A stretch of 23,615 nt of DNA, taken from IMG/VR virus record IMGVR_UViG_3300007280_000270, positions 1-23,615 of that record, one strand, 5' to 3'. A program made the translations under genes and the position numbers. This DNA comes from a virus. The notes below the pieces were generated by a model. It saw nothing but the letters and a program-made list of their open reading frames with translations, was not told the DNA's origin and did no database searches. This document shows, one piece after another, positions 11,956-23,615 of the stretch; position 1 is the first letter of the stretch; each line of letters opens with the position of its first letter.

Positions 11956-12258
11956 CTACCCCCAAGCAACGTCACCATTTGCATAATAGACCTTGAAAGC
12001 TCTATCATTATCGTCATATAATGTCGTTTCTATTTTTAAATCTCCATTGACGTGTAATGTCTTTTCTGGATTTGTCATTTGTATACCAACGAATCCTGAT
12101 GATGTATTTGCAACCACCATATCGTCATTTTTATTTTGTCCCATTCTTGTAAGTGATGGGTTCTTATCTGATTTCACACCAACGGAAGCATGTCCTACAG
12201 ACTTACCTCTGGATCCTGTTGCTATCAAATCTGCTAAGTGTCTTGCTTTACTTCCCAT
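11956..12258 (-). CDS. Small fibre-region protein sharing a C-terminal module with its neighbour
   Basis: The product is 100 aa. The N-terminal half is Gly/Ser/Lys-rich with no recognised domain. The C-terminal half has VGIQMTNPEKTLHVNGDLKI, a strand-turn phrase common in phage fibre proteins, then an ending FKVYYANGDVAWG. The upstream 231-aa protein ends with the same 13 residues after a similar VGIGNVNP phrase. The nucleotide sequences of the two endings differ at many third positions, so the duplication is not recent. AAGGAG lies 6 bp before the ATG. A virion fibre or adhesin role is inferred from neighbours. Confidence 0.75.
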   Translation of the reverse strand: MGSKARHLADLIATGSRGKSVGHASVGVKSDKNPSLTRMGQNKNDDMVVANTSSGFVGIQMTNPEKTLHVNGDLKIETTLYDDNDRAFKVYYANGDVAWG

Positions 12259-12267
12259 GGTTTCTCC

Positions 12268-12963
12268 TTAACCCCACGCCACATCGCCATTGGCGTAGTA
12301 AACTTTAAATACTCTATCTGATGAATCTAAGATGTCATCACCAAACTTTACATTAGCACTTATGTATGCTTCACCACCAACTGCCAAAGCAGTACTTGGG
12401 TTTACATTTCCAATACCAACATTATTATTTGCTGCAATTGTAATATTATTTGCTGATCCAGCATTGAATGCAAATATGTCTACAACGTCATTTGCTGACG
12501 CACCAGATGTTAAAATAACATTTGCTGAGTTCGTTGCAGTATAGTCTTGTGTATCCTCTAGTAGAATACCATTAATGTATACAGTTAAACCAGATCCTAC
12601 TGTATAAGATAAATTTTGTCCATCAACATCATTACCTGCAAAATTAGTTTGTGATGCGGATGCTAAGAAAGAGAATCTTTTGAATGTTTGAATATTGGTA
12701 GCATCACTACTTGATGCCCAGTACATTGTACCGTTACCATATGTAGAAAGTACTTTACCATTATCACCATCTTCTGATGGAAAGGATTGACCGTTTACGG
12801 ATAAGGAATTAAGATTAGCACCTACTTCAAAAACTGCAGTCGAGTTGGCAGAATAAACAATACCATCAGCGGTATTGATTGCAAATTCGCCATCGGCTAG
12901 TTTTGAATTACTTGGGACGTTCCCACTTACGGCGGAACGCTTGATCTTTATTACAGATGCCAT
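12268..12963 (-). CDS. Tail fibre/adhesin-like protein with Mtd-like N-terminus (231 aa)
   Basis: The product is 231 aa. The N-terminus MASVIKIKRS followed by a GEFAIN block matches the Mtd-type N-terminal domain seen on many phage fibre and receptor-binding proteins. It is shared by the 419-aa and 998-aa proteins here. A GNGTMYWASS phrase near residue 78 and a beta-rich middle with SGLTVYINGILLEDTQDYTA follow. The C-terminal 50 residues share a module with the 100-aa neighbour. No charged or catalytic motif is seen. AGAGGA precedes the ATG, and a pair of palindromes lies just upstream. The likely role is a virion fibre or tip component. Confidence 0.82.
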   Translation of the reverse strand: MASVIKIKRSAVSGNVPSNSKLADGEFAINTADGIVYSANSTAVFEVGANLNSLSVNGQSFPSEDGDNGKVLSTYGNGTMYWASSSDATNIQTFKRFSFLASASQTNFAGNDVDGQNLSYTVGSGLTVYINGILLEDTQDYTATNSANVILTSGASANDVVDIFAFNAGSANNITIAANNNVGIGNVNPSTALAVGGEAYISANVKFGDDILDSSDRVFKVYYANGDVAWG

Positions 12964-13036: not shown

Positions 13037-14296
13037 TTAGTAACTACCACCATCTATAATAGCGTCAAGTTGTCCTAAGTTTCCTGAGTTAGTTGAGTTA
13101 GCAGCATTATAAGATACTGTTGCACCTGGTTCTGTACCAATACTATTCACTACAACGAATACGTTAGCAGATGCATCTCTGAAGATACCTGAATAGAATA
13201 AGCTAGATGTGTTACCATACTCACCATAGAAACCAAAGTCAGCTGAATCAGTAAATGTGTTTGTGTCACCTTGATTATCTGCTAGCTTTAATGCTGCGTC
13301 ATCAATTGTTACTGTTGAACTATTAACTGTTGTGGTCGTACCATCAACTGTGAAGTTACCATGAATTGTTAAATTTTCACCAATCGTTACAGACTTACCA
13401 AATCCAGCACCACCAGCTACTATTAAAGCACCTGAAGTGTTTGAAGATGAATCCGTAGCATTGGAAATGTTTACGGTGGTTGTTGTATTTGCAGCTGTTG
13501 TGTTACTTGCAAAGAAGTTAGTTGAGTTACCAACTTTCAAGTTAGCACCATCAGAGTTAATTACTACATTTGAGTGACCATATGTTGCAGTCGCTGCTGC
13601 AGTTTTAACTACTACTGCATCTTTGCTTACATGAGTATTAGATGCGTGAGTACCAACATGCAATGTGCCTGTATTGGATAATTCTACTGTATCGTCTAAT
13701 GATACGCTAATTGCTGAAGTAGAAGTATTTGTTACAGTGATGTTATCACCACCGTTTAATGTTACTGTGTTATTTTCGCCACCACCTGAAAGTACCAATG
13801 TACCAGTAGAAGCTGTACCACCGGCTGCGAGGTCATAGTCCTCACCAGTGATTGTCATTTGTGTAGAGTTACCAGATACGATTACTCCATTAGCACCTGT
13901 AACTGTTAATGTTTCTGCAGAGCTGTCTCCACCATTTGAAGGTGTAAGAACAATCTGACCAACAGATGAGTTACCAGTTTGTGATAATACGTAAGTAGTA
14001 GAGTCTACTGTTACCTGTGTTGAGTTACCAGATACTACTGTACCATTTGTACCTGCAATGACGATGGAGTCATTTGATAGTGAGGCATTGTCAACAGTTA
14101 ATGTGATTGTACCCTGAGTAGAGTTACCACTCTGGACCATATTGTAGTTATCGCCGGATACACTGACTACCTGTCCATTCGCTCTTGCTGTAAACAGTTT
14201 CTTATCAGCTAAGTTAATCGCTAATTCACCGGTCTCCAGTGACGAAGGAACAGCACTCGAGGTACTCGATCTTTTTAATTTAATGACTGATGCCAT
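13037..14296 (-). CDS. Tail fibre protein with Mtd-like N-terminus and three beta repeats (419 aa)
   Basis: The product is 419 aa. The Mtd-like N-terminus is MASVIKLKRSS with ETGELAINLAD. From about residue 50 to 200 there are three imperfect repeats of roughly 50 residues. The first two end in VSGNSTQ(V/M)T(V/I), the third in a related strand. Near residues 290-370 is a module widespread in marine T4-like fibre proteins: SGALIVAGGAGFGKSVTIGE, then GNFTVDGTTTTVNSSTVTID, then DFGFYGEYG. The C-terminus is IIDGGSY, the shared ending described elsewhere. The protein is rich in S, T, N, G and has almost no Cys. A TAGGAGATCACG ribosome site precedes the ATG. A virion fibre function is likely, but which fibre is not known. 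Confidence 0.88.
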   Translation of the reverse strand: MASVIKLKRSSTSSAVPSSLETGELAINLADKKLFTARANGQVVSVSGDNYNMVQSGNSTQGTITLTVDNASLSNDSIVIAGTNGTVVSGNSTQVTVDSTTYVLSQTGNSSVGQIVLTPSNGGDSSAETLTVTGANGVIVSGNSTQMTITGEDYDLAAGGTASTGTLVLSGGGENNTVTLNGGDNITVTNTSTSAISVSLDDTVELSNTGTLHVGTHASNTHVSKDAVVVKTAAATATYGHSNVVINSDGANLKVGNSTNFFASNTTAANTTTTVNISNATDSSSNTSGALIVAGGAGFGKSVTIGENLTIHGNFTVDGTTTTVNSSTVTIDDAALKLADNQGDTNTFTDSADFGFYGEYGNTSSLFYSGIFRDASANVFVVVNSIGTEPGATVSYNAANSTNSGNLGQLDAIIDGGSY

Positions 14297-14555: not shown

Positions 14556-15299
14556 CTAATAAGTCCCTCCGTCCAAGTCATCGAACGTTGGGGTATCATT
14601 ACTATCTAATTGCATCACTTGTCCATTTGTACCTGTGGCTTGAGCCATAGTAGAAGTATTAGATGCATAAAATACTCCTTTAGCAGTGAACGTATTTAAT
14701 CCTGTACCACCATCTGATGTCTTCAGAGGTGATGCTAAACTATCAATAGTTGCATTGTATAATGTTGTTGACAATCCAGTATTGAGAGTATTACCATTAT
14801 ATTTAGCTCCTGAAACAAATATGCTTTTACCTGAAGTCACACTGCCAGGTAGATTGGTTCCTATGAAATGAAGTGTACCTGATTGATAATCAAAGTACCA
14901 TTCGTCACTGTTACCGGATCCAGTTTCAAAAAGCTGTGCACCATTAGATGCAGGGTTACCAGATCCAGCAGAATCAACATATACTTTTAGTTGATATGTT
15001 GCACCAAATGTTGGTGGGATCCAATTGATAACTCCTGTCTTCCAAGTTCTTCTTGCTGTAGATGTTCCGTCTTCTGTTGTTTCTAATTCATCATAGACGA
15101 TTGTAATACCAGCATTTGCACTTGGTTTTGTTGATGCTATTGAAGATGTGTCTGACCAAATACTTGTTGGTTTGATAATGAATTCTGATACGATACTTTC
15201 GTTAGCAGCTTTCTTAGCAGCATTAGTATCCGTCTTAGCTTTACCAAAGCCAATCTTTTTCCATAAGAGGTCTACTTTTTTTGCGTCTGTAATTGCCAT
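14556..15299 (-). CDS. Virion structural / fibre protein (247 aa) ending DGGTY
   Basis: The product is 247 aa. The N-terminus AITDAKKVDLLWKKIGFGKAKTDTNAAKK is a signature I associate with structural proteins of marine T4-like phages. A globular beta domain follows at about residues 60-165, with YQLKVYVDSAG and NSDEWYFDYQSGTLHFIGTN; this resembles a carbohydrate-binding-like jelly roll, but that is only an impression. The C-terminal quarter has GTGLNTFTAKGVFYAS, a phrase frequent in phage fibres, and the ending DDLDGGTY. Its ATG overlaps the stop of the 998-aa gene as TAATG, so it is probably made together with that fibre. Confidence 0.82.
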   Translation of the reverse strand: MAITDAKKVDLLWKKIGFGKAKTDTNAAKKAANESIVSEFIIKPTSIWSDTSSIASTKPSANAGITIVYDELETTEDGTSTARRTWKTGVINWIPPTFGATYQLKVYVDSAGSGNPASNGAQLFETGSGNSDEWYFDYQSGTLHFIGTNLPGSVTSGKSIFVSGAKYNGNTLNTGLSTTLYNATIDSLASPLKTSDGGTGLNTFTAKGVFYASNTSTMAQATGTNGQVMQLDSNDTPTFDDLDGGTY

Positions 15300-18295
15300 T
15301 ATGCTATACTCATACTTGTTACGGAGTCACCAGAATCTAATCCGATCCTCACTAATATTTGATTACCAAATGCTCCTGTACCATTTTGGTCACCAAGAGT
15401 AAATGTAAAGTCTTCGTTTGAATATGTAGTGCCATCTACTACTATATCACCAGATGTGAAAGCACATCCATCTGAACCGTTACCACCAGCAGTTGTATTT
15501 GCTCCTGGTGTACCTGAACCAGCATATGCTGCTGAACAGTTTAACCATCCATTTGAATCTGAAGTATCATCGATAGCAGTATTTGGTGCTGCTATTTGCA
15601 TTGATGAAACTTTACCAGACATTGTCAATGTAAAGTTAGCCATTGCTGATCTTCTGAATGCAAATGTAAAGTATTGTCTTCCTGACCTGCCAGTATTTAG
15701 GTCTGGACCTACTGGTAGATAACCAGATGATAAGTCTTGTGTATAGTGTTTCAATGTTCCAAATCTAACTACTGCTTCGTCTGTGCCTGCTATTGTTTGA
15801 GCACCTGACCAAGCATTACCTGTGTAGTAGTTTGTAGAATTACTGAATGATGGATTGGCACCACTAAGTCCATGTATTCTTTTTCCATCATCGTCATAGG
15901 TTGCACCTAATGAATCTGAAACAGATATAAGGTCTTCTCTTACACCAGATGAATGACCATTGTATGCTTGTATTTGTGTATTGGCCATTTGTATAGTTGA
16001 ACCATTACCATTAACATTCTTAACATAGATACCAAATCCTTCTACATTTCTACCACCACCTGCAACATTAATCTGGAATGTTTCTAATGTTACGTTTGCA
16101 GATAGACCTGTGTTTGCTTTTGGATAACCACTATTAAGAGTTGATGCTGGGAATGCCTGTGCATATGTCTTACTTTGTGAATTGATTGCACCACCACTAT
16201 CACTTTCAGTATTAGTACCACTTACTATTTGAACTGGTGATGTTGTATTTCTATATGTTTGACCTGCAACATTAGATACTAACACACCTGCAACATTCAA
16301 TACTGCATCGTTAGTATAGTATGGTATACCAGAAACATATGCTAATGTTCCTGCTGAGTTTTGAGTAACTGTTGTGCTTGTACAATTGACAACCGCTGTT
16401 CCAGTTAAACTATCTTCCATGAATTGTACTACTGCTGTATTACCAGTTGTACTATGACTCATCATAAATGTATGAGCACCTGGAGATAATGTAGACTTAG
16501 ATATTCTAGCTTTTAGACCAGCATATAAACCTGGAGCATATATTCTTTGTCCAGCAGATACACTTGATCCACTTGCATTAAAGTTATAGAAGTCTACGTC
16601 TGAGTGAAGGACCAAACCACCAGATGTAGAAACATTGTTGCTACTTGATAGAGTTATTGATCCATCTTCTGATCCATCTACATACGCTTTTAGCACACCT
16701 GCATCACCGTTGTAGAATGGTGTAGAGTTTGCAGTCCCCGATGTTGTTCGAGTACCAGCTCCAGTATATCTTGTACAAGTATCACCTGCTGATAATGTTG
16801 TTACACCGCTTGTGTGGTCTACAAACCCATGAGCCACTCTTACGTCCGATCCAGACGAACCGGTTGTTAATGTGATGTTTTTGCTTGATAAACCATTCGG
16901 GGCTGCAATGCCTGTATCGAAAATCTTTATTGTTCCAGTTGTTGAAACTGGTGTTGCACTTGGTGTTGCTGTTGCATGTGAATTGATAGAGAACGTAATT
17001 GTATTAGTTCCAGTACCTGTTCCACTTGTATATGTATGTGCTAACCTTGCACCTTGTGTACCACCAGCAACTGTTGTATTAGCAATAGCATCTGAATTAC
17101 CATCACCCCAGTTAGCATTAAATGTTGCTACAACATCGTTTGCATTTGTAGATGTGTTAAGTAGATATATTGCTTGGTTGATATTTGCTTCTGTAATAAC
17201 ACTGCCACCAGATGATGCATTATAGATCTGGAATGCTGCACCTGGATCTGCTGTGTATAGTGTAATTAAATCTGTTACCGAATGCGTTGCTGAATTACCA
17301 GATCCTTTTGCATTTGGATTTCTAGCTGTTACAGTAACGTCAAATGGTGAGTTAGTATTGTCTGTGTACGTATGAGATGGCGTACTATCAGTAGTGTTAT
17401 TAGTATATGAACCATCCCCCCAATTAATATCGTAGTGAGTAGCATTTCCTGTTACGTCCAATGTTAGTGTTGCTGTTAGTGGAGTACCACCTGTGTTTCC
17501 AGAAGTACAAGTTACTGTTATGTCTCTAACGTAATTATTTGTGTATACGTTATACATTACTTCGTTCAATATGTCAACTGAGTCAGCAATCTTAGTTGTG
17601 TTTGCTAATTCAATTGTTGCACCTTCTGCTGATGTTCCTTTACCGTTTGAATATGCTCCATCTGTTGGAGGTCCTATAACAATACTATTACCACCTAACT
17701 GTGCTTCAATATTATCAACGTATTGTTTTGTTGCTGCTTCCATTGCATTTGTCGGATCAGTACTTAGGGTCACAACATTAGTAAACAGATTCAAATATGT
17801 TTTATCTGATGATCCAAGTGTAAAGTTTCCATTTGATGATGGAATGATATGTGAGTTAACTGATGCACCAAGTGATATAGTATCACCACCATCACCAAGT
17901 TGTAATGATGCACCTCTTAGTACAATATCTCCATTAACTGTTAGTGTGTTAGATACTGTTACTGAATTTGTTATTGAAAGATCACCAGCAGTAATGTTAA
18001 CTGCATTGATGATGTTTGCTGTCTGTGTTCCGTCAGTTGTAATATTTAATGTCTTAATATTATCAACATAACCTGTAGCATTAGTTACAAGTGCAGCAGA
18101 GTTTGTTAGTGTGCCATTGGCATGACTTAGTTTACTACCAACCGATCCAGTATCGAGTACTTTGAATAAGTCTCCATTTGGATTACCAATGAATAAGCTG
18201 TTGGATGAATAGGAATAAGCTAATTCACCATTCGCAAGACTTGACGGAGTATCTTGAGTGGTACTTCGTTTTATTTGAATAATAGAATCAGACAC
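15299..18295 (-). CDS. Large tail fibre/adhesin with Mtd-like N-terminus and two PKD-like domains (998 aa)
   Basis: The start is GTG at 18295, sharing its G with the stop of the 82-aa gene (TAGTG), with a strong GGAGGA nine bases before. Residues 1-45 are the Mtd-like N-terminus (IIQIKRSTTQ, then LANGELAYSY). A beta region with AATKQYVDN near 187-195 follows. Two PKD-like domains occupy about 258-343 (WGDG 292-295, HTY 308-310) and about 345-460 (WGDG 396-399, HTY 420-422). The last 200 residues hold a Gly/Ser-rich module with FAFRRSAMANFTLTMSG and GWLNCSAAYAGSG, which I recall from other marine myovirus structural proteins. PKD domains mediate protein or glycan contacts, so surface adhesion is the likely role. 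Confidence 0.88.
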   Translation of the reverse strand: MSDSIIQIKRSTTQDTPSSLANGELAYSYSSNSLFIGNPNGDLFKVLDTGSVGSKLSHANGTLTNSAALVTNATGYVDNIKTLNITTDGTQTANIINAVNITAGDLSITNSVTVSNTLTVNGDIVLRGASLQLGDGGDTISLGASVNSHIIPSSNGNFTLGSSDKTYLNLFTNVVTLSTDPTNAMEAATKQYVDNIEAQLGGNSIVIGPPTDGAYSNGKGTSAEGATIELANTTKIADSVDILNEVMYNVYTNNYVRDITVTCTSGNTGGTPLTATLTLDVTGNATHYDINWGDGSYTNNTTDSTPSHTYTDNTNSPFDVTVTARNPNAKGSGNSATHSVTDLITLYTADPGAAFQIYNASSGGSVITEANINQAIYLLNTSTNANDVVATFNANWGDGNSDAIANTTVAGGTQGARLAHTYTSGTGTGTNTITFSINSHATATPSATPVSTTGTIKIFDTGIAAPNGLSSKNITLTTGSSGSDVRVAHGFVDHTSGVTTLSAGDTCTRYTGAGTRTTSGTANSTPFYNGDAGVLKAYVDGSEDGSITLSSSNNVSTSGGLVLHSDVDFYNFNASGSSVSAGQRIYAPGLYAGLKARISKSTLSPGAHTFMMSHSTTGNTAVVQFMEDSLTGTAVVNCTSTTVTQNSAGTLAYVSGIPYYTNDAVLNVAGVLVSNVAGQTYRNTTSPVQIVSGTNTESDSGGAINSQSKTYAQAFPASTLNSGYPKANTGLSANVTLETFQINVAGGGRNVEGFGIYVKNVNGNGSTIQMANTQIQAYNGHSSGVREDLISVSDSLGATYDDDGKRIHGLSGANPSFSNSTNYYTGNAWSGAQTIAGTDEAVVRFGTLKHYTQDLSSGYLPVGPDLNTGRSGRQYFTFAFRRSAMANFTLTMSGKVSSMQIAAPNTAIDDTSDSNGWLNCSAAYAGSGTPGANTTAGGNGSDGCAFTSGDIVVDGTTYSNEDFTFTLGDQNGTGAFGNQILVRIGLDSGDSVTSMSIA

Positions 18296-18543
18296 TAAAA
18301 TGTTCCTCCGTCTATATTAGGATTCTTCAAAACATAGTTATTTGAAGACGCTTCATATACTAATGTACCTCCGTCTACTAGAGTTGCATCATTGACGTCA
18401 TCTAGATCTGCTATGTTTGATTTACCTGACGCAGACGTTCTTAATGTTACAGGATCACCACCTTGGTTTCCACCAATGGATCCAGTTTGTCCAACATTAA
18501 CTTTTATTGATGTTGATTGATTGTTAAAAAGTGTATTTGCCAT
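18295..18543 (-). CDS. Small fibre-region protein ending DGGTF (82 aa)
   Basis: The product is 82 aa. A Gly/Asn-rich N-terminal half precedes ADLDDVNDATLVDGGTLVYE, a DLxDV...DGxxLVY phrase found in many phage fibre proteins. The ending is NIDGGTF, one of four such C-termini in this window. The start is coupled to the 109-aa gene by TAATG, and the stop to the 998-aa fibre by TAGTG. It is therefore probably co-translated with and structurally linked to the large fibre. No catalytic residue pattern is visible. Confidence 0.8.
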   Translation of the reverse strand: MANTLFNNQSTSIKVNVGQTGSIGGNQGGDPVTLRTSASGKSNIADLDDVNDATLVDGGTLVYEASSNNYVLKNPNIDGGTF

Positions 18544-18872
18544 TACTTGGTTACCTCCGGTGTGACTGTAACCATTCCTTCTAATATTCTACTCTTAACA
18601 GATGATGCATCTGTCAGCTCAACATCATATACATATCTGCCTGCTGATAAAGATGATGTTACAGAATTATTAAGGGAAAGCGTCAAAGTGCCATTGTTAT
18701 TGGCCAGGGCAGTTGTAAAGGCTGTTGAGTTAGAAGAGGAATAAGTTTTTCTGATTTGTGACGCAGCTGTCATGCCAGTTAAATCTAACTGTGCTCCTTC
18801 TGCGTTTGTTAATGATACTGTGGTAGCAAAATCTGTACCTTGATCAATTACGATATTGACTTTTGTTCCCAT
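18543..18872 (-). CDS. Small beta-sandwich virion protein, first gene of the fibre cluster (109 aa)
   Basis: The product is 109 aa: GTKVNIVIDQGTDFATTVSL, then LDLTGMTAASQIRKTYSSSN, then GRYVYDVELTDASSVKSRIL. The alternating hydrophobic pattern and short turns suggest one Ig-like beta sandwich. I recall similar proteins in marine T4-like phages, annotated only as structural or hypothetical. GGAG precedes the ATG by a normal distance. A late promoter octamer lies 39 bp upstream, making this the promoter-proximal gene of the fibre transcript. It is coupled to the next gene by TAATG. A baseplate or fibre adaptor role is inference. Confidence 0.82.
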   Translation of the reverse strand: MGTKVNIVIDQGTDFATTVSLTNAEGAQLDLTGMTAASQIRKTYSSSNSTAFTTALANNNGTLTLSLNNSVTSSLSAGRYVYDVELTDASSVKSRILEGMVTVTPEVTK

Positions 18873-18942: not shown

Positions 18943-19287
18943 ATGAGACTAAGAACAGATTACAAATACGCACTAATCGATCAATTCCAAACCTATTGGA
19001 ATGCATTTGACAATACTGAAGAGTTTTACAGCGACATTATGGCAACTGATGAGAAACTTCTAAAGTATACTATTTCTAAAACTAAAAAAGTAAGAGGCAT
19101 CAAAGGCTTTGTCTCTAAGGTTATTTATTCCCAAAACGAATTGTGGATGATATATTATTGTGATTACAAGCCTGCGCTTGAGGCTATAGATAATATTGAC
19201 AAGAGCAATATTGTTGAACCCTTAGAGAAAAAAAGATATAATGTATCTAGTAGGATTGTGACGACTAAGAGAGTTCCCCACTTGTAA
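18943..19287 (+). CDS. Hypothetical protein, only plus-strand gene (114 aa)
   Basis: The product is 114 aa from ATG at 18943, with GAGG seven bases before; in-frame upstream codons to 18856 have no ribosome site and would cross the promoter region. It starts MRLRTDYKYALIDQFQTYWN and is rich in Y, K, D, I, with a basic C-terminus (KKRYNVSSRIVTTKRVPHL). Pattern: an N-terminal amphipathic helix, then KVRGIKGFVSKVIYSQNELW, which alternates as beta strands. I do not recognise the family. Its 3' end overlaps the oxygenase-like gene by 23 bp, tail to tail. It is the only gene against the general direction, suggesting a later insertion or separate control. Confidence 0.75.
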   Translation: MRLRTDYKYALIDQFQTYWNAFDNTEEFYSDIMATDEKLLKYTISKTKKVRGIKGFVSKVIYSQNELWMIYYCDYKPALEAIDNIDKSNIVEPLEKKRYNVSSRIVTTKRVPHL

Positions 19288-19984
19288 GTTCGTCAACAAT
19301 GTCTTCCCAGATAGCTGGGTCTTTAACTACAAAACCTAAAGTTATTCTTGGACCGCCATATGCTGCGTGCCACATAATTTTATTATGTTCTTGCTTTTCA
19401 CCATAATAACCAAGTTTGCAATGCCAACCATCTACGTCTTGTATATGAACTAAATGTTTATCTGGATCTGCTCTGAGAGAACCTTCTGGTTCATTTGAGC
19501 TGTCTATGTGACGCCAATAGCCAGAACCATCTGACCAAGTAAATAAACAATTGAAACCAGGTACGTTCCAATTAGTGTGCCATGCAATGTATCCATCTTC
19601 TGGATAAAACATTTTCAATGCACAGAATTTAAAACCAATTGCGTGACCTATTTCTTCATCTACCCAGTCACTTTTTTCTTTATACTTCTTCACCCATTCT
19701 TTTTCTTCGGGTGTTAAGCTATCATTGTTATCAAGTTGTTGTTGCATAGACATCATGTTGAGATCATAACCAAATGAATCTGGTGGAAATCCATTGTGTG
19801 ATTCTGCTGGTGTAGATTTCAAGCATTCTAACGATGCTGCATATTCAGGTCGGCCTTCTTTTATAAACTTGCCTTTACATTGCCAATTAGGTAAATTCTT
19901 ATCTGGTCTGTTTGCTAGGATCCAATCTTTATACTCATTTAAGGAGGTCAAGAGATCCGCAGGTAGGGTCAATATTTGTCTCAT
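19265..19984 (-). CDS. Probable 2OG-Fe(II) oxygenase-like protein (239 aa)
   Basis: The start chosen is ATG at 19984, with GAGGAAA eight bases before; longer in-frame starts lie deeper inside the glycosyltransferase gene. The product is 239 aa. YIAWHTNWN (H136, N138) is followed about 70 residues later by MWHAAYGGPRITLGF (H206, R213). This spacing and the distal H-x6-R-x-T/S-L pattern resemble the Fe(II) and 2-oxoglutarate binding residues of double-stranded beta-helix oxygenases. The second metal ligand, usually Asp or Glu, would be Asn here, so activity is uncertain. The substrate is unknown. It overlaps the glycosyltransferase gene by 50 bp, implying joint translation. The call is inference from motif shape. 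Confidence 0.6.
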   Translation of the reverse strand: MRQILTLPADLLTSLNEYKDWILANRPDKNLPNWQCKGKFIKEGRPEYAASLECLKSTPAESHNGFPPDSFGYDLNMMSMQQQLDNNDSLTPEEKEWVKKYKEKSDWVDEEIGHAIGFKFCALKMFYPEDGYIAWHTNWNVPGFNCLFTWSDGSGYWRHIDSSNEPEGSLRADPDKHLVHIQDVDGWHCKLGYYGEKQEHNKIMWHAAYGGPRITLGFVVKDPAIWEDIVDELTSGELS

Positions 19985-20810
19985 TATAAGTTTCCTCATG
20001 TACCAACTCAGGTGGTATCGTGTAATGAAATACAGCATACTCTTCGCCATATCTCAGTTCAGTTTCTCTGTAGCCTGTTACGTAATTGTACTTAGCGTCT
20101 TTAGGCATACGCTGAATGTTAATCTTTAAGTCTGGTTGTTCATGTAACACTCTCCAAAAAGCAAATGTGTCCCAGTATGCTAATGACCTTGGATATGGGT
20201 CAACACCAGACTTATCTCTTTGACCAGAACCATCAGTTGATTCATTATGGTTTCTGTAATATCTTAACCACTCCTTCCATAACTTCTGTGTACGTTCATT
20301 CTTTCTCCAAGTAAACATGCCACAGTGCCATCTGAATATATGAGCTTTACCGTCCAAATATAAATCAATATGTTCTTGGTCCCAATGGTTTAACTCTCTA
20401 GCCTCACCATTGTTTTGATGTTTGTCTTGAAACAAAACTACCTTAGCATTGTAAGGTCTGTTCTCAGACATCAAAACATCTACATCATCGCCAGCATTAT
20501 CAAGATGTTCCCAGACTTCTTCTATCTCATCAGAACAAACAAAGCTGTCTGCATCTAAGTATGTTGTATACTCAAATGGCGACATAGGCAATGCCCATAG
20601 CTTTGCTCTATTATGTACTGGTGCAGGAGTAAACAAATGATCAAACAAATGTCTGTCCTCATCCTTTATATACATCTCATGTGTAAAGAATGCTACTTGA
20701 GCATCCGGTACTTCATCTTTAAGACTCTTGATACACTCTACTGCGCCTGTATAAAACGACTTAGATAGAGTTGCTACTATTAAGTATCCTCTACTTTCCT
20801 TTGGAATCAT
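19935..20810 (-). CDS. GT-A fold glycosyltransferase (GT8-like)
   Basis: The product is 291 aa. The N-terminus is a Rossmann-like strand GYLIVATLSKSFYTGAVECI. Next comes RAKLWALPMSPFEYTTYLDA, with the metal-binding DAD motif at residues 86-88 (LDADSFV), the nucleotide-sugar site of GT-A enzymes. Later features are a conserved-looking HIFRWHCGMFTWRKN segment, YWDTFAFWRVL and a late His in AVFHYTIPP, a position that in GT8-like enzymes often completes the metal site. The acceptor is unknown: virion fibres, host lipopolysaccharide or modified DNA are possible. It overlaps the upstream 174-aa gene by 20 bp and the oxygenase-like gene by 50 bp, so the three form one unit. Confidence 0.85.
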   Translation of the reverse strand: MIPKESRGYLIVATLSKSFYTGAVECIKSLKDEVPDAQVAFFTHEMYIKDEDRHLFDHLFTPAPVHNRAKLWALPMSPFEYTTYLDADSFVCSDEIEEVWEHLDNAGDDVDVLMSENRPYNAKVVLFQDKHQNNGEARELNHWDQEHIDLYLDGKAHIFRWHCGMFTWRKNERTQKLWKEWLRYYRNHNESTDGSGQRDKSGVDPYPRSLAYWDTFAFWRVLHEQPDLKINIQRMPKDAKYNYVTGYRETELRYGEEYAVFHYTIPPELVHEETYNETNIDPTCGSLDLLK

Positions 20811-21315
20811 ATGACCTCAATATAGCTGCGATACCATATGCTTGAGCTTCGATGATGGTTTTACTTTTTCTGATAGCTCGTCTAAACTCTTTGTTACATT
20901 CTTCTTTAAGAGGTTCCAAAGCTAACATAGTTGTTTTCATTTCCCAGATATCTTCTCTGGCTTTACTATTTCTTGCCTGCTTTTCTTGTTCTTTTGCAGC
21001 TTCATTAGTTTTAGTTTCAATCTGAATCTGTCTGTTGGTATTGTGCTGAATCTCTTCTGGCCTGTATTGTTTCTCAATGTCTTTAAACAATGGATGGTTT
21101 GGATCAGCAGGAATACCTTTCTCCATATGTGCTGAACCATCTGGTCTAATTAACGTACAAGCAAGCTCAGTCTTGTCATTGTTTGTGTAATGTGGATATA
21201 CAATTCTTGGTAAAGTAGGATCTACTTCAAAGTCAGGTATAGAGGTACCTTTCCTTACCTCTGGTTCTGGCTTGTCTATAGTTACTCCTTCAGGAATTTT
21301 TGCTTCTCGATTCAT
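20791..21315 (-). CDS. Hypothetical helical protein, first gene of the accessory cassette (174 aa)
   Basis: The product is 174 aa. Residues 1-85 are proline-rich with short strands (DPTLPRIVYPHYTNND, then LACTLIRPDGSAHMEKGIPA). Residues 85-150 are a charged, glutamine-rich helix (TKTNEAAKEQEKQARNSKAR) likely to form a coiled coil. A C-terminal helix contains IIEAQAYGIAAILRSYDSKGK. I do not recognise a family. AAGGAAAC lies before the ATG, and the same AGGAAACTTATA context precedes the oxygenase-like start. It is the first gene after a sigma70-like promoter. Confidence 0.78.
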   Translation of the reverse strand: MNREAKIPEGVTIDKPEPEVRKGTSIPDFEVDPTLPRIVYPHYTNNDKTELACTLIRPDGSAHMEKGIPADPNHPLFKDIEKQYRPEEIQHNTNRQIQIETKTNEAAKEQEKQARNSKAREDIWEMKTTMLALEPLKEECNKEFRRAIRKSKTIIEAQAYGIAAILRSYDSKGK

Positions 21316-21371: not shown

Positions 21372-23615
21372 TTAGCTAACTCTTACCCAGAGTTTCAATG
21401 TTGCTACAGTTGTTGAAGAATCCATTACAGTCTGACCGACCCATTGATGTGAGTAAGATCCTTCATATTGTTTTACATAGTTGGTGTTATATATGCCTTC
21501 GTATTCTTTTGCATATTGTTTAGTCCACTGCTTAACATATGCTTTGATCCAATCTCTATCAAAGTACCCAGTGTAAGCACCTTCGTATTGTCTTGCAAAG
21601 TATCCAGTGAATTGTTGTTCGTAGTTACCAGCATATGCCTTTGTGTACTGACCAATGTATGATCCAGTAAACTGTTGAGTGAATACACCTTCAAATGCTC
21701 CAGTGTATTGAGCTTCATATGCTTTTACATATTGGCCAAGGTATGTTGTATTGAATACACCTTCGAATGTTCCAGTGTATTGACCAAGATATGTTCCAGT
21801 GTATTGACCAATATAGTTACCTGCCCATGCTTTCTGATAGTAACCAATGTATGCACCTTCGTATTGTTTTGCAAAGTATCCTGTATACTGAGCTTCCCAA
21901 ACCTTAGACCATTGTTTTTCATAAACGCCAAGATATGTTCCAGTAAACTGTTGGCCAAAGTATCCTGTAAACTGACCTTCATATTCTTTTGAGTATTGAC
22001 CAAGATATGTTCCAACATATTCACCTTGGTATGCTTTTACATATTGGCCAACGTATAGTCCTTCATAGTGTCCAACATAGTTATGTGCACCTTCGAATGC
22101 TTGGTCATAGTATCCAATGTAAACACCTTCATAAGTTTTAGTCCAAGTGTTTGCATAGTAACCAGTATATTGACCGTTGTACTGACCTGAGTATGTTCTT
22201 GATCCAGACCATAGTTTAGCATATGCTTTGATCCAAGCTACTGAGATATAAGTTCTGTTAAATGCACCTTCGAACTGTTGAGCATATTGTCCGGTGTATG
22301 TTCTAGTACCTTCGTATTGTTTAGCATATGCTTTGACCCAACTCAGTACATAGTCTTTTGAGTAGTTTCTTGTAAACAATCCAGTCCACTGTCTGCTGCC
22401 TGCATATTGTGCTTGATAGTTTCTTGAGAACTGACCTGTATAGTTTTTGGCATACTGACCTGTGTATGTTCTGGTACCAACATATTGTGCAGCAAATGCT
22501 CCAGCAAATCTTCTTTCGTAATATCCTGTATAAACGCTTTCGAAGTAGCCAGTGTACTGTTTACTATAGTTAGATGTATACACGCCCGTATACGTGGTCT
22601 CATACTGTCCTACATATGCTTTCGTGTACGTTTTAGACCATACTCTATTCCATTGTCCGGTATATGTTTTAGTATATGCACCAATGTATGCTTTTTGATA
22701 TGCCTTAGTCCATTGCTTTGTATACTGACCAAGGAAAGTTTTTACATAGTTACCTTGGTATGCTTTTTGATATGCTTTCTGCCATATCTTAGCAAACACA
22801 CCTTCATAAGTTTTTACATAGTTGCCTGTGTATGCTTTCTGATAATGTTTTGTATACAGACCAGTATATGATCCAACGTAATCGCCAGAGTATTGTTTTA
22901 CATAGTTACCAGTATACTGCTTAGTATAGTTTCTATTATACTGACCTGTGAACTGACTTTCATATGTTCCAGAGTATGCTCTATCATAGTTGCCTGTATA
23001 TGCTTTCTGATAGTTAGTACCGTATGTTCCACTAAACTGAGAATCATAAGAACCAGTGTAACCTCTTTCGTAGTTACCTGCATAATGCTTTGTATAGTTT
23101 GTTGTATACGTACCAGAGAACTGAGACTCATACGTACCAGCAAATTGTCTGTCATAATTACCAGTATATTGTTTCAGGTAGTTTCTATTATACAGACCTA
23201 CGAATGTTGTTCCATACTGACCTGAGTATGCTTTTGTATAGTTACCAGTGTATGCTTTTTGATAGTTTCTAGTATACGTTCCACTATATTGTTTTGTATA
23301 GTTTGTTGTATAGTATCCAGTATAATGCTTGGTGTAGTTTCTACCATACTGACCTGTAAAGGTAGTTGCATATTGACCTGAATATGTCTTGGTATAGTTA
23401 CCAGTGTACTGTCTTGTATAGTTAGTACCATACTGACCTGAGAAGGTAGTTGCATATTGACCTGAATATGTCTTAGTATAGTTACCTGCATACGCTTTTG
23501 TATATGATGTAGCGTACTGACCTGAATACTGTTTTAGATAGTTCTTGTTAAAGTTGTTAGCATATGCTCTGGTATAACCTGTCTCATAGTAACCAGTATA
23601 TTGTTTTGTATAGTT
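21372..23615 (-). CDS. Giant Tyr-rich tetrapeptide-repeat protein, C-terminal part (N-terminus outside window)
   Basis: I read the frame codon by codon from 23615 to the TAA at 21374-21372 and found no stop, giving 747 residues. There is no ATG in the upper 816 bp, so an apparent GTG start at 22799 is only an internal Val codon. An aromatic residue (Y, sometimes F or W) occurs at every fourth position almost throughout. The three residues between usually carry a central G or K/R/E: Y-x-G-x-Y-x-K-x. Examples are QYTGNYTKTYSGQY and AYQKAYIGAYTKTY. At about five places the phase shifts by a six-residue unit such as VGTRTY or AGSRQW. The last 25 residues leave the repeat and end ATLKLWVRVS. I do not recognise a named family. 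A long fibre or whisker is the likeliest role, from its position next to fibre genes. Confidence 0.88.
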   Translation of the reverse strand, partial: NYTKQYTGYYETGYTRAYANNFNKNYLKQYSGQYATSYTKAYAGNYTKTYSGQYATTFSGQYGTNYTRQYTGNYTKTYSGQYATTFTGQYGRNYTKHYTGYYTTNYTKQYSGTYTRNYQKAYTGNYTKAYSGQYGTTFVGLYNRNYLKQYTGNYDRQFAGTYESQFSGTYTTNYTKHYAGNYERGYTGSYDSQFSGTYGTNYQKAYTGNYDRAYSGTYESQFTGQYNRNYTKQYTGNYVKQYSGDYVGSYTGLYTKHYQKAYTGNYVKTYEGVFAKIWQKAYQKAYQGNYVKTFLGQYTKQWTKAYQKAYIGAYTKTYTGQWNRVWSKTYTKAYVGQYETTYTGVYTSNYSKQYTGYFESVYTGYYERRFAGAFAAQYVGTRTYTGQYAKNYTGQFSRNYQAQYAGSRQWTGLFTRNYSKDYVLSWVKAYAKQYEGTRTYTGQYAQQFEGAFNRTYISVAWIKAYAKLWSGSRTYSGQYNGQYTGYYANTWTKTYEGVYIGYYDQAFEGAHNYVGHYEGLYVGQYVKAYQGEYVGTYLGQYSKEYEGQFTGYFGQQFTGTYLGVYEKQWSKVWEAQYTGYFAKQYEGAYIGYYQKAWAGNYIGQYTGTYLGQYTGTFEGVFNTTYLGQYVKAYEAQYTGAFEGVFTQQFTGSYIGQYTKAYAGNYEQQFTGYFARQYEGAYTGYFDRDWIKAYVKQWTKQYAKEYEGIYNTNYVKQYEGSYSHQWVGQTVMDSSTTVATLKLWVRVS
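23342..23486 (-). repeat. 84-bp direct repeat inside the Tyr-repeat gene
   Basis: Bases 23342-23402 and 23426-23486 match at 58 of 61 positions by eye, offset by 84 bp (28 codons). The unit encodes YSGQYATTF plus following tetrads in each copy. High nucleotide identity, against the diverged codons elsewhere in the gene, points to a recent tandem duplication or gene conversion. Confidence 0.8.

Follow-up and report, generated by a model that had tools for sequence, protein, structure and literature searches.

The window analysed here is the whole of an IMG/VR virus fragment of 23,615 bases, in which all identified genes lie on the minus strand. Its right edge is occupied by the 3' part of a giant fibre gene with an aromatic tetrad repeat (21372..23615, minus strand); the frame is open throughout 747 codons plus a stop and exits the contig there, its start lying beyond the edge, as an earlier note on this DNA had recognised. 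Downstream of the fibre follow, in order, a 174-aa protein with a helix-like C-terminal half (CH; 20791..21315, minus), a 291-aa candidate glycosyltransferase (GT; 19935..20810, minus), a predicted Fe(II)/2-oxoglutarate (2OG) oxygenase (OX; 19265..19999, minus; the listed ORF reaches 20050, and the family alignment favours a start near 19984-19999), a 109-aa protein resembling the PHROG 'L-shaped tail fiber protein assembly' (18543..18872, minus), which is the next gene in Phage C48C1 too, and tail fibre-type proteins. Further downstream are T4-type genes for neck, sheath stabiliser, terminase, sheath, tube, portal, protease, scaffold and capsid. In relatives, the region upstream of the fibre encodes an S74 chaperone-domain fibre and an aromatic-repeat protein (L006:1971-5537 and L004:2646-6077), whose period-4 repeats are followed by a Gp38 adhesin domain (PF05268, 8.8e-13). 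Because of these tail-fibre-type and adhesin neighbours, the gene is assigned to the tail-fibre/adhesin locus, and the source of the window is an uncultured T4-like phage with the fibre in its tail-fibre region.

Elsewhere in the window, three proteins (14556-15299, 18295-18543 and 13037-14296, minus) have in common the C-terminal tag DGG(T/S)(Y/F), with the endings FDDLDGGTY, NPNIDGGTF and AIIDGGSY, and two adjoining proteins (12268-12963 and 11956-12258, minus) share the C-terminal end DRxFKVYYANGDVAWG.

The window fibre is dominated by aromatic residues, which make up 191 of its 747 positions (Y 19.4%, F 4.0%, W 2.1%), or about one in four as originally estimated. Pairs of aromatics at spacing 4 number 172, against 48.4 +/- 5.2 after shuffling (maximum 66 in 2,000 shuffles), there are no pairs at spacing 2, and enrichment is confined to multiples of 4. 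The periods 3 and 5 of collagen and pentapeptide proteins were looked for in the window fibre and not found, and the early exclusion of collagen, pentapeptide repeats and coiled coils holds. An aromatic had been described at every fourth position for about 720 residues; the repeat does extend to aa 725, ahead of the conserved C-terminal strand, but six phase breaks, of which five have spacing 6 and one has spacing 5, interrupt it at aa 378-513. The longest exact runs flank this region, with 95 aromatics at aa 2-378 (22482..23612, minus) and 54 at aa 513-725 (21441..22079, minus). The middle position of the tetrad, for which glycine or a charged residue had been proposed, is G, K or R in 82% of window tetrads. 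With even spacings, the side chains of a beta-strand all point to one side, so that the pattern fits extended strands with the aromatics on one face, a geometry already suggested by the earlier note.

Searches of Pfam and PHROGs with the window fibre and three neighbouring genes, and of PDB sequences with the raw window repeat, gave no match. Fold searches of PDB and BFVD with the model of a short homologue were likewise negative, although its disordered shaft may have weakened them; the statement that the protein cannot be linked to a described fold was thus borne out in these databases. Chance and assembly or sequencing artefacts are ruled out by the same plan in many independent contigs.

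Relatives of the fibre are numerous: IMG/VR contains hundreds, of which 189 were reported by a GT query and 224 by a query with the N-terminal domain. Our set comprised 217 complete fibre ORFs taken from IMG/VR, of which 97 are non-redundant. Giant relatives with complete genes, on independent contigs, measure 1,723-3,138 aa, in agreement with the initial description of a giant phage protein. All complete fibres have a common plan: an N-terminal domain of ~235 aa is followed by a shaft, and the chain ends in ..LW(V/L)R(T/V)A or something close to it. The aromatic shaft varies from about 40 to 2,863 residues; one fibre (L152:2897-3773) has no aromatic shaft. Two complete fibre genes stand in tandem before a single enzyme cassette in L135, L139, L113 and L087. 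In a set of 50,697 phage records, Phage C48C1 (Kyanoviridae) is the only one with full relatives of the N-terminal domain, GT and OX; the family is widespread and nearly absent from cultured phages. A genome collection gave one match, on an Acidimicrobiaceae MAG contig, which offers no basis for host assignment. No description was found in the open-licence literature on tyrosine-repeat fibres, C48C1, T4-like 2OG/GT genes or hairpin fibres.

The two ends of the chain probably meet in the base. The N-terminal base domain is composed of three related units, and the C-terminal tail aligns with the last strand of unit 2; in fact, unit 2 aligns better with unit 3 plus the C-terminal tail (105.1) than with unit 3 alone (96.7). 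An AF2 model of the 368-aa fibre L103, run in single-chain mode with a 40-sequence alignment, has pLDDT above 90 in most of the N-terminal domain, below 50 in the shaft and of 92-97 at the end of the C-terminal strand. In this relative, single-chain prediction was thus informative for the base and the C-terminal strand but not for the shaft. Alignment and model together support completion of unit 3 by the ..LW(V/L)R(T/V)A strand, and the same is predicted for the window strand MDSSTTVATLKLWVRVS with its stop (21372..21425, minus), which carries the conserved LWxRxA/S end. If the strand completes unit 3, the shaft is an insertion in this unit that starts and ends at the same place; from this follow two predictions, a tip at mid-shaft and mirrored arms, which were then tested.

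As for the tip, the largest interruption of the shaft falls near half-length in most of the first 67 complete fibres (shafts of 45-2,863 residues), and in 56 of 96 non-redundant fibres it lies at 0.45-0.57 of shaft length, where 11.5 such fibres are expected; many of the outliers are ties among 5-residue gaps that are themselves mirrored. In most short shafts the centre is a Gly-rich chain break, such as FFAGSIGGFFSG or YYSGRNYGSY.

As for the arms, the breaks of L135 form an exact mirror, lying at shaft fractions.072,.155,.239,.322 and.420, then.508, then.580,.678,.761,.845 and.928. Mirror coherence, that is aromatic facing aromatic in one register i+j=S, reaches 0.82-0.91 in L005, L006, L009, L012, L014 and L036, against 0.39-0.59 for segment-shuffled shafts, of which at most 1 in 500 matches the observed value; in close relatives a single register covers arms of about 900-1,430 residues. 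A direct-order control, with the C-terminal half reversed, gives lower coherence than the mirror in giants (0.32-0.73) and equals it in some short fibres whose breaks are evenly spaced. The symmetry is not general: of the 34 fibres that have at least three breaks, only 17 pass the mirror test at the 5% level, and C48C1, L113, L106, L048 and L056 are among the divergent members that do not. These contain more inserts, and their architecture may be a different one.

Facing residues, compared with shifts by multiples of 4 as the baseline for middle and outer positions, are strongly paired by type: D.R is enriched 11.8x, K.T 2.5x, G.G 1.8x and E.Q 1.6x, while G.K falls to 0.38x and D.E to 0.19x. 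Since the register was picked by best class agreement at middle positions, the G.G excess is partly selected; the excess of D.R and E.Q and the avoidance of D.E concern outer positions, outside this selection. Independent 250-residue blocks nearest the base have an offset of 0 or -1 in all proteins tested, and blocks farther out mostly 0 or +4, with two odd (spacing-5) breaks, one per arm, bringing the offset back to +4. In L004 and L012 the cluster of breaks starts at height 212 in each of the two arms; in L006 and L009 it starts 232 residues farther out, again in both arms. A 28-aa indel (seven tetrads; fibre aa 1334-1361) between L004 and the near-identical L005 affects the return arm only, and is either a real difference or an assembly collapse.

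The window fits into this series. Its break cluster (22077..22484, minus; aa 378-513), with spacings 6, 6, 6, 5, 6 and 6 from N to C and heights 341-212 from the base, places breaks at heights 212, 250, 264, 285, 315 and 341, identical to those of the return arms of L004, L011 and L012; these heights are exactly conserved at 43-47% identity. Compared with outgoing arms, the window sequence matches best at zero offset in L004, L006 and L009, and at other offsets in L012 and L014. The window ORF would therefore probably contain only the return arm, with its distal stretch before the cluster and its base-proximal stretch after it, and the C-terminal strand of a giant fibre whose outgoing arm and base lie outside the window.

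The window ORF probably encodes the return arm of a giant out-and-back fibre of the virion, which we take most likely to be a tail fibre. The sequences of close relatives support this architecture well; the fold and oligomeric state are proposed. The chain would begin in the ~235-aa base domain, exit inside its third unit, and form an outgoing arm that is a beta-strand lattice with Y, F or W at every fourth residue; at a mid-shaft tip it would turn and come back antiparallel in fixed register, until the ..LWVRxA strand at its end completes the third unit, leaving both chain ends in the base. On one face of this ribbon, places where aromatic lies opposite aromatic would alternate with places where middle positions are paired (G with G; K with T, K or R), and even-numbered phase breaks matched at the same height in both arms would keep the register. 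In fully extended strands (0.33 nm per residue), the relatives' arms of ~925-1,430 residues would reach ~300-470 nm and the visible 725 residues of the window ~240 nm. The tip may contact the host. More tentatively, we propose a new kind of fibrous protein, in which a single chain forms an antiparallel beta ribbon with locked register and an aromatic tetrad lattice. Such ribbons would reach about half a micrometre in length, lengthen through insertions that are matched between the arms, bear a receptor tip where the chain folds back, and receive hydroxyl and sugar groups from enzymes encoded in the same operon.

The last feature derives from the linked downstream cassette, which is absent from the account in the earlier note. 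CH, GT and OX all lie downstream of the fibre in 113 of 117 non-redundant loci with at least 4 kb of downstream sequence, a sample not free of selection because the loci were mostly fetched with fibre, GT or OX queries; in the subset fetched with the fibre first, 55 of 57 carry the full cassette. The exceptions are the shaftless L152, with CH only, L008, whose ORF is broken, L259 and L271. CH has no match in NCBIfam and, conserved directly after the fibre, is a putative chaperone. GT is likely a GT8-like glycosyltransferase of GT-A type, as its sequence suggests: the DxD motif (D86 and D88) is invariant in 63 sequences, and Glyco_transf_8 is the strongest family match among relatives, found in 6 of 63, at best at about 2.6e-6 to 3e-6, while the window GT matches it at 0.034, under the curated cut-off. 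The best PDB profile match, a weak one (0.047), is glycogenin, an enzyme that glucosylates its own tyrosine.

Sequence searches gave no identification for OX, which was recognised by structure: its AF2 model (pLDDT 94.2) has the double-stranded beta-helix fold, and fold matches are led by 2OG oxygenases, with AlkBH2 best (3.5e-4), followed by P. putida P4H, AlkBH3, BesD-like and FIH, at TM-scores of only 0.3-0.45. The motif H141-x-N143 ... H211 ... R218 is invariant in 72 sequences (the window and 71 relatives), as is D188; N143 stands where Fe/2OG enzymes have the D/E of H-x-D/E. The model predicts an Fe(II)/2OG oxygenase. Chaperone, transferase and oxygenase would act on the fibre, the latter two glycosylating and hydroxylating its shaft. 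Lysine cannot be the universal target, because short shafts and C48C1 contain little of it, and tyrosine or threonine are the candidates shared by the family.

The fibre may also be built as modelled while GT and OX are mere neighbours serving another substrate, such as a virion protein, the host surface or DNA. This we hold to be a serious, if somewhat doubtful, possibility: the GT class derives from modest profile matches and C48C1 has further oxygenase-like loci elsewhere, whereas the near-fixed four-gene order persists in 113 of 117 loci across wide divergence, and the shaftless L152, a single case, retains CH without GT and OX within 7 kb downstream.

Concerning the fold itself, two straight chains lying head to tail as an antiparallel homodimer, with residue i facing S-i, a base domain at each end and possibly swapped C-terminal strands, would yield the same mirror signature. 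We judge this arrangement unlikely, since the central Gly-rich break of most short shafts suits a turn and a dimer does not need it; the single-chain AF2 model also places the C-terminal strand with confidence, though a swapped strand would look alike. Still less likely is a parallel trimeric shaft or beta-solenoid with an aromatic ladder on one face and no fold-back. Period 4 with a single aromatic face would suit it, and known tail-fibre shafts are mostly parallel trimers. The T4 gp34 shaft is an example (PMC3004832). Such a structure, however, does not predict a tip at mid-shaft, breaks in mirror positions, length changes shared by the two arms or a C-terminus in the base, and the solenoid or helical bundle put forward at first gives way to an antiparallel ribbon, to which the mirror symmetry of relatives and their base-completing strand point. 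A disordered or amyloid-like sticky filament, tyrosine-rich and without fixed pairing like silk or an adhesive, is very improbable, as the low-complexity Y/G/T/Q-rich sequence and shaft pLDDT below 50 that would favour it are opposed by break heights that stay exact at 43-47% identity and by pairing that is specific to the register.

The proposed out-and-back fibre belongs to a family whose architecture is readable from sequence alone. If the model is true, phages fold one chain back on itself to make fibres several times the length of the long tail fibre of T4, and shafts of about 40 to 2,860 residues form a natural length series for register studies in antiparallel strands; the question is also raised of how the two arms of one gene lengthen in step. 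The two half-fibres of T4 measure ~70 and 74 nm (PMC3004832).

The closest working analogue would be the out-and-back needle of T4 gp37 (and the lambda Stf C-terminus), with no homology found: neither the window fibre nor complete fibres gave a Pfam or PHROG match of this type, and no fold matched. T4 gp37 is a homotrimer with HxH iron-binding motifs in its needle; the window fibre has no such motif, nor do the five giant relatives examined. The gp37 tip consists of a collar, a six-stranded antiparallel needle and a receptor-binding head (PMC9659904, PMC7291167). In both systems the chain would run out to a tip, return antiparallel, end at a base or collar and make contact distally, as judged for the fibre from sequence symmetry and the AF2 closure in relatives; the fibre differs in its aromatic tetrad lattice, its arms, which reach ~1,430 residues where gp37 has a short needle, and its own cassette genes.

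Among phage proteins, CDS0201 of C48C1 (OQ984149, 3,347 aa, 'hypothetical protein') has the same N-terminal domain, C-terminal strand, aromatic period 4 and CH-GT-OX order, but its shaft is Arg-rich and broken by several globular-looking inserted domains, a ~78-aa stretch is tandemly duplicated at about aa 2007-2160, and global mirror symmetry is absent. The S-RIM2 structural protein with VTGN repeats also has a tetrapeptide period, of pattern x-T-G-N; its repeats are aliphatic and form two blocks of unequal length, no relative of the N-terminal domain was found in S-RIM2, and kinship is not claimed. The Gp38 adhesin protein upstream in relatives shares the locus and aromatic period-4 stretches, and differs by its terminal PF05268 domain and a mirror test that is not significant.

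Mimivirus collagen is modified by a virus-encoded hydroxylase and glucosyltransferase (PMC9546862). It has period 3 instead of 4, and no homology with the fibre is shown; the likeness lies in a viral fibrous repeat protein accompanied by virus-encoded enzymes for hydroxylation, predicted in the case of the fibre, and glycosylation, and it suggests that bacterial viruses may have a counterpart to collagen-style hydroxylation and glycosylation.
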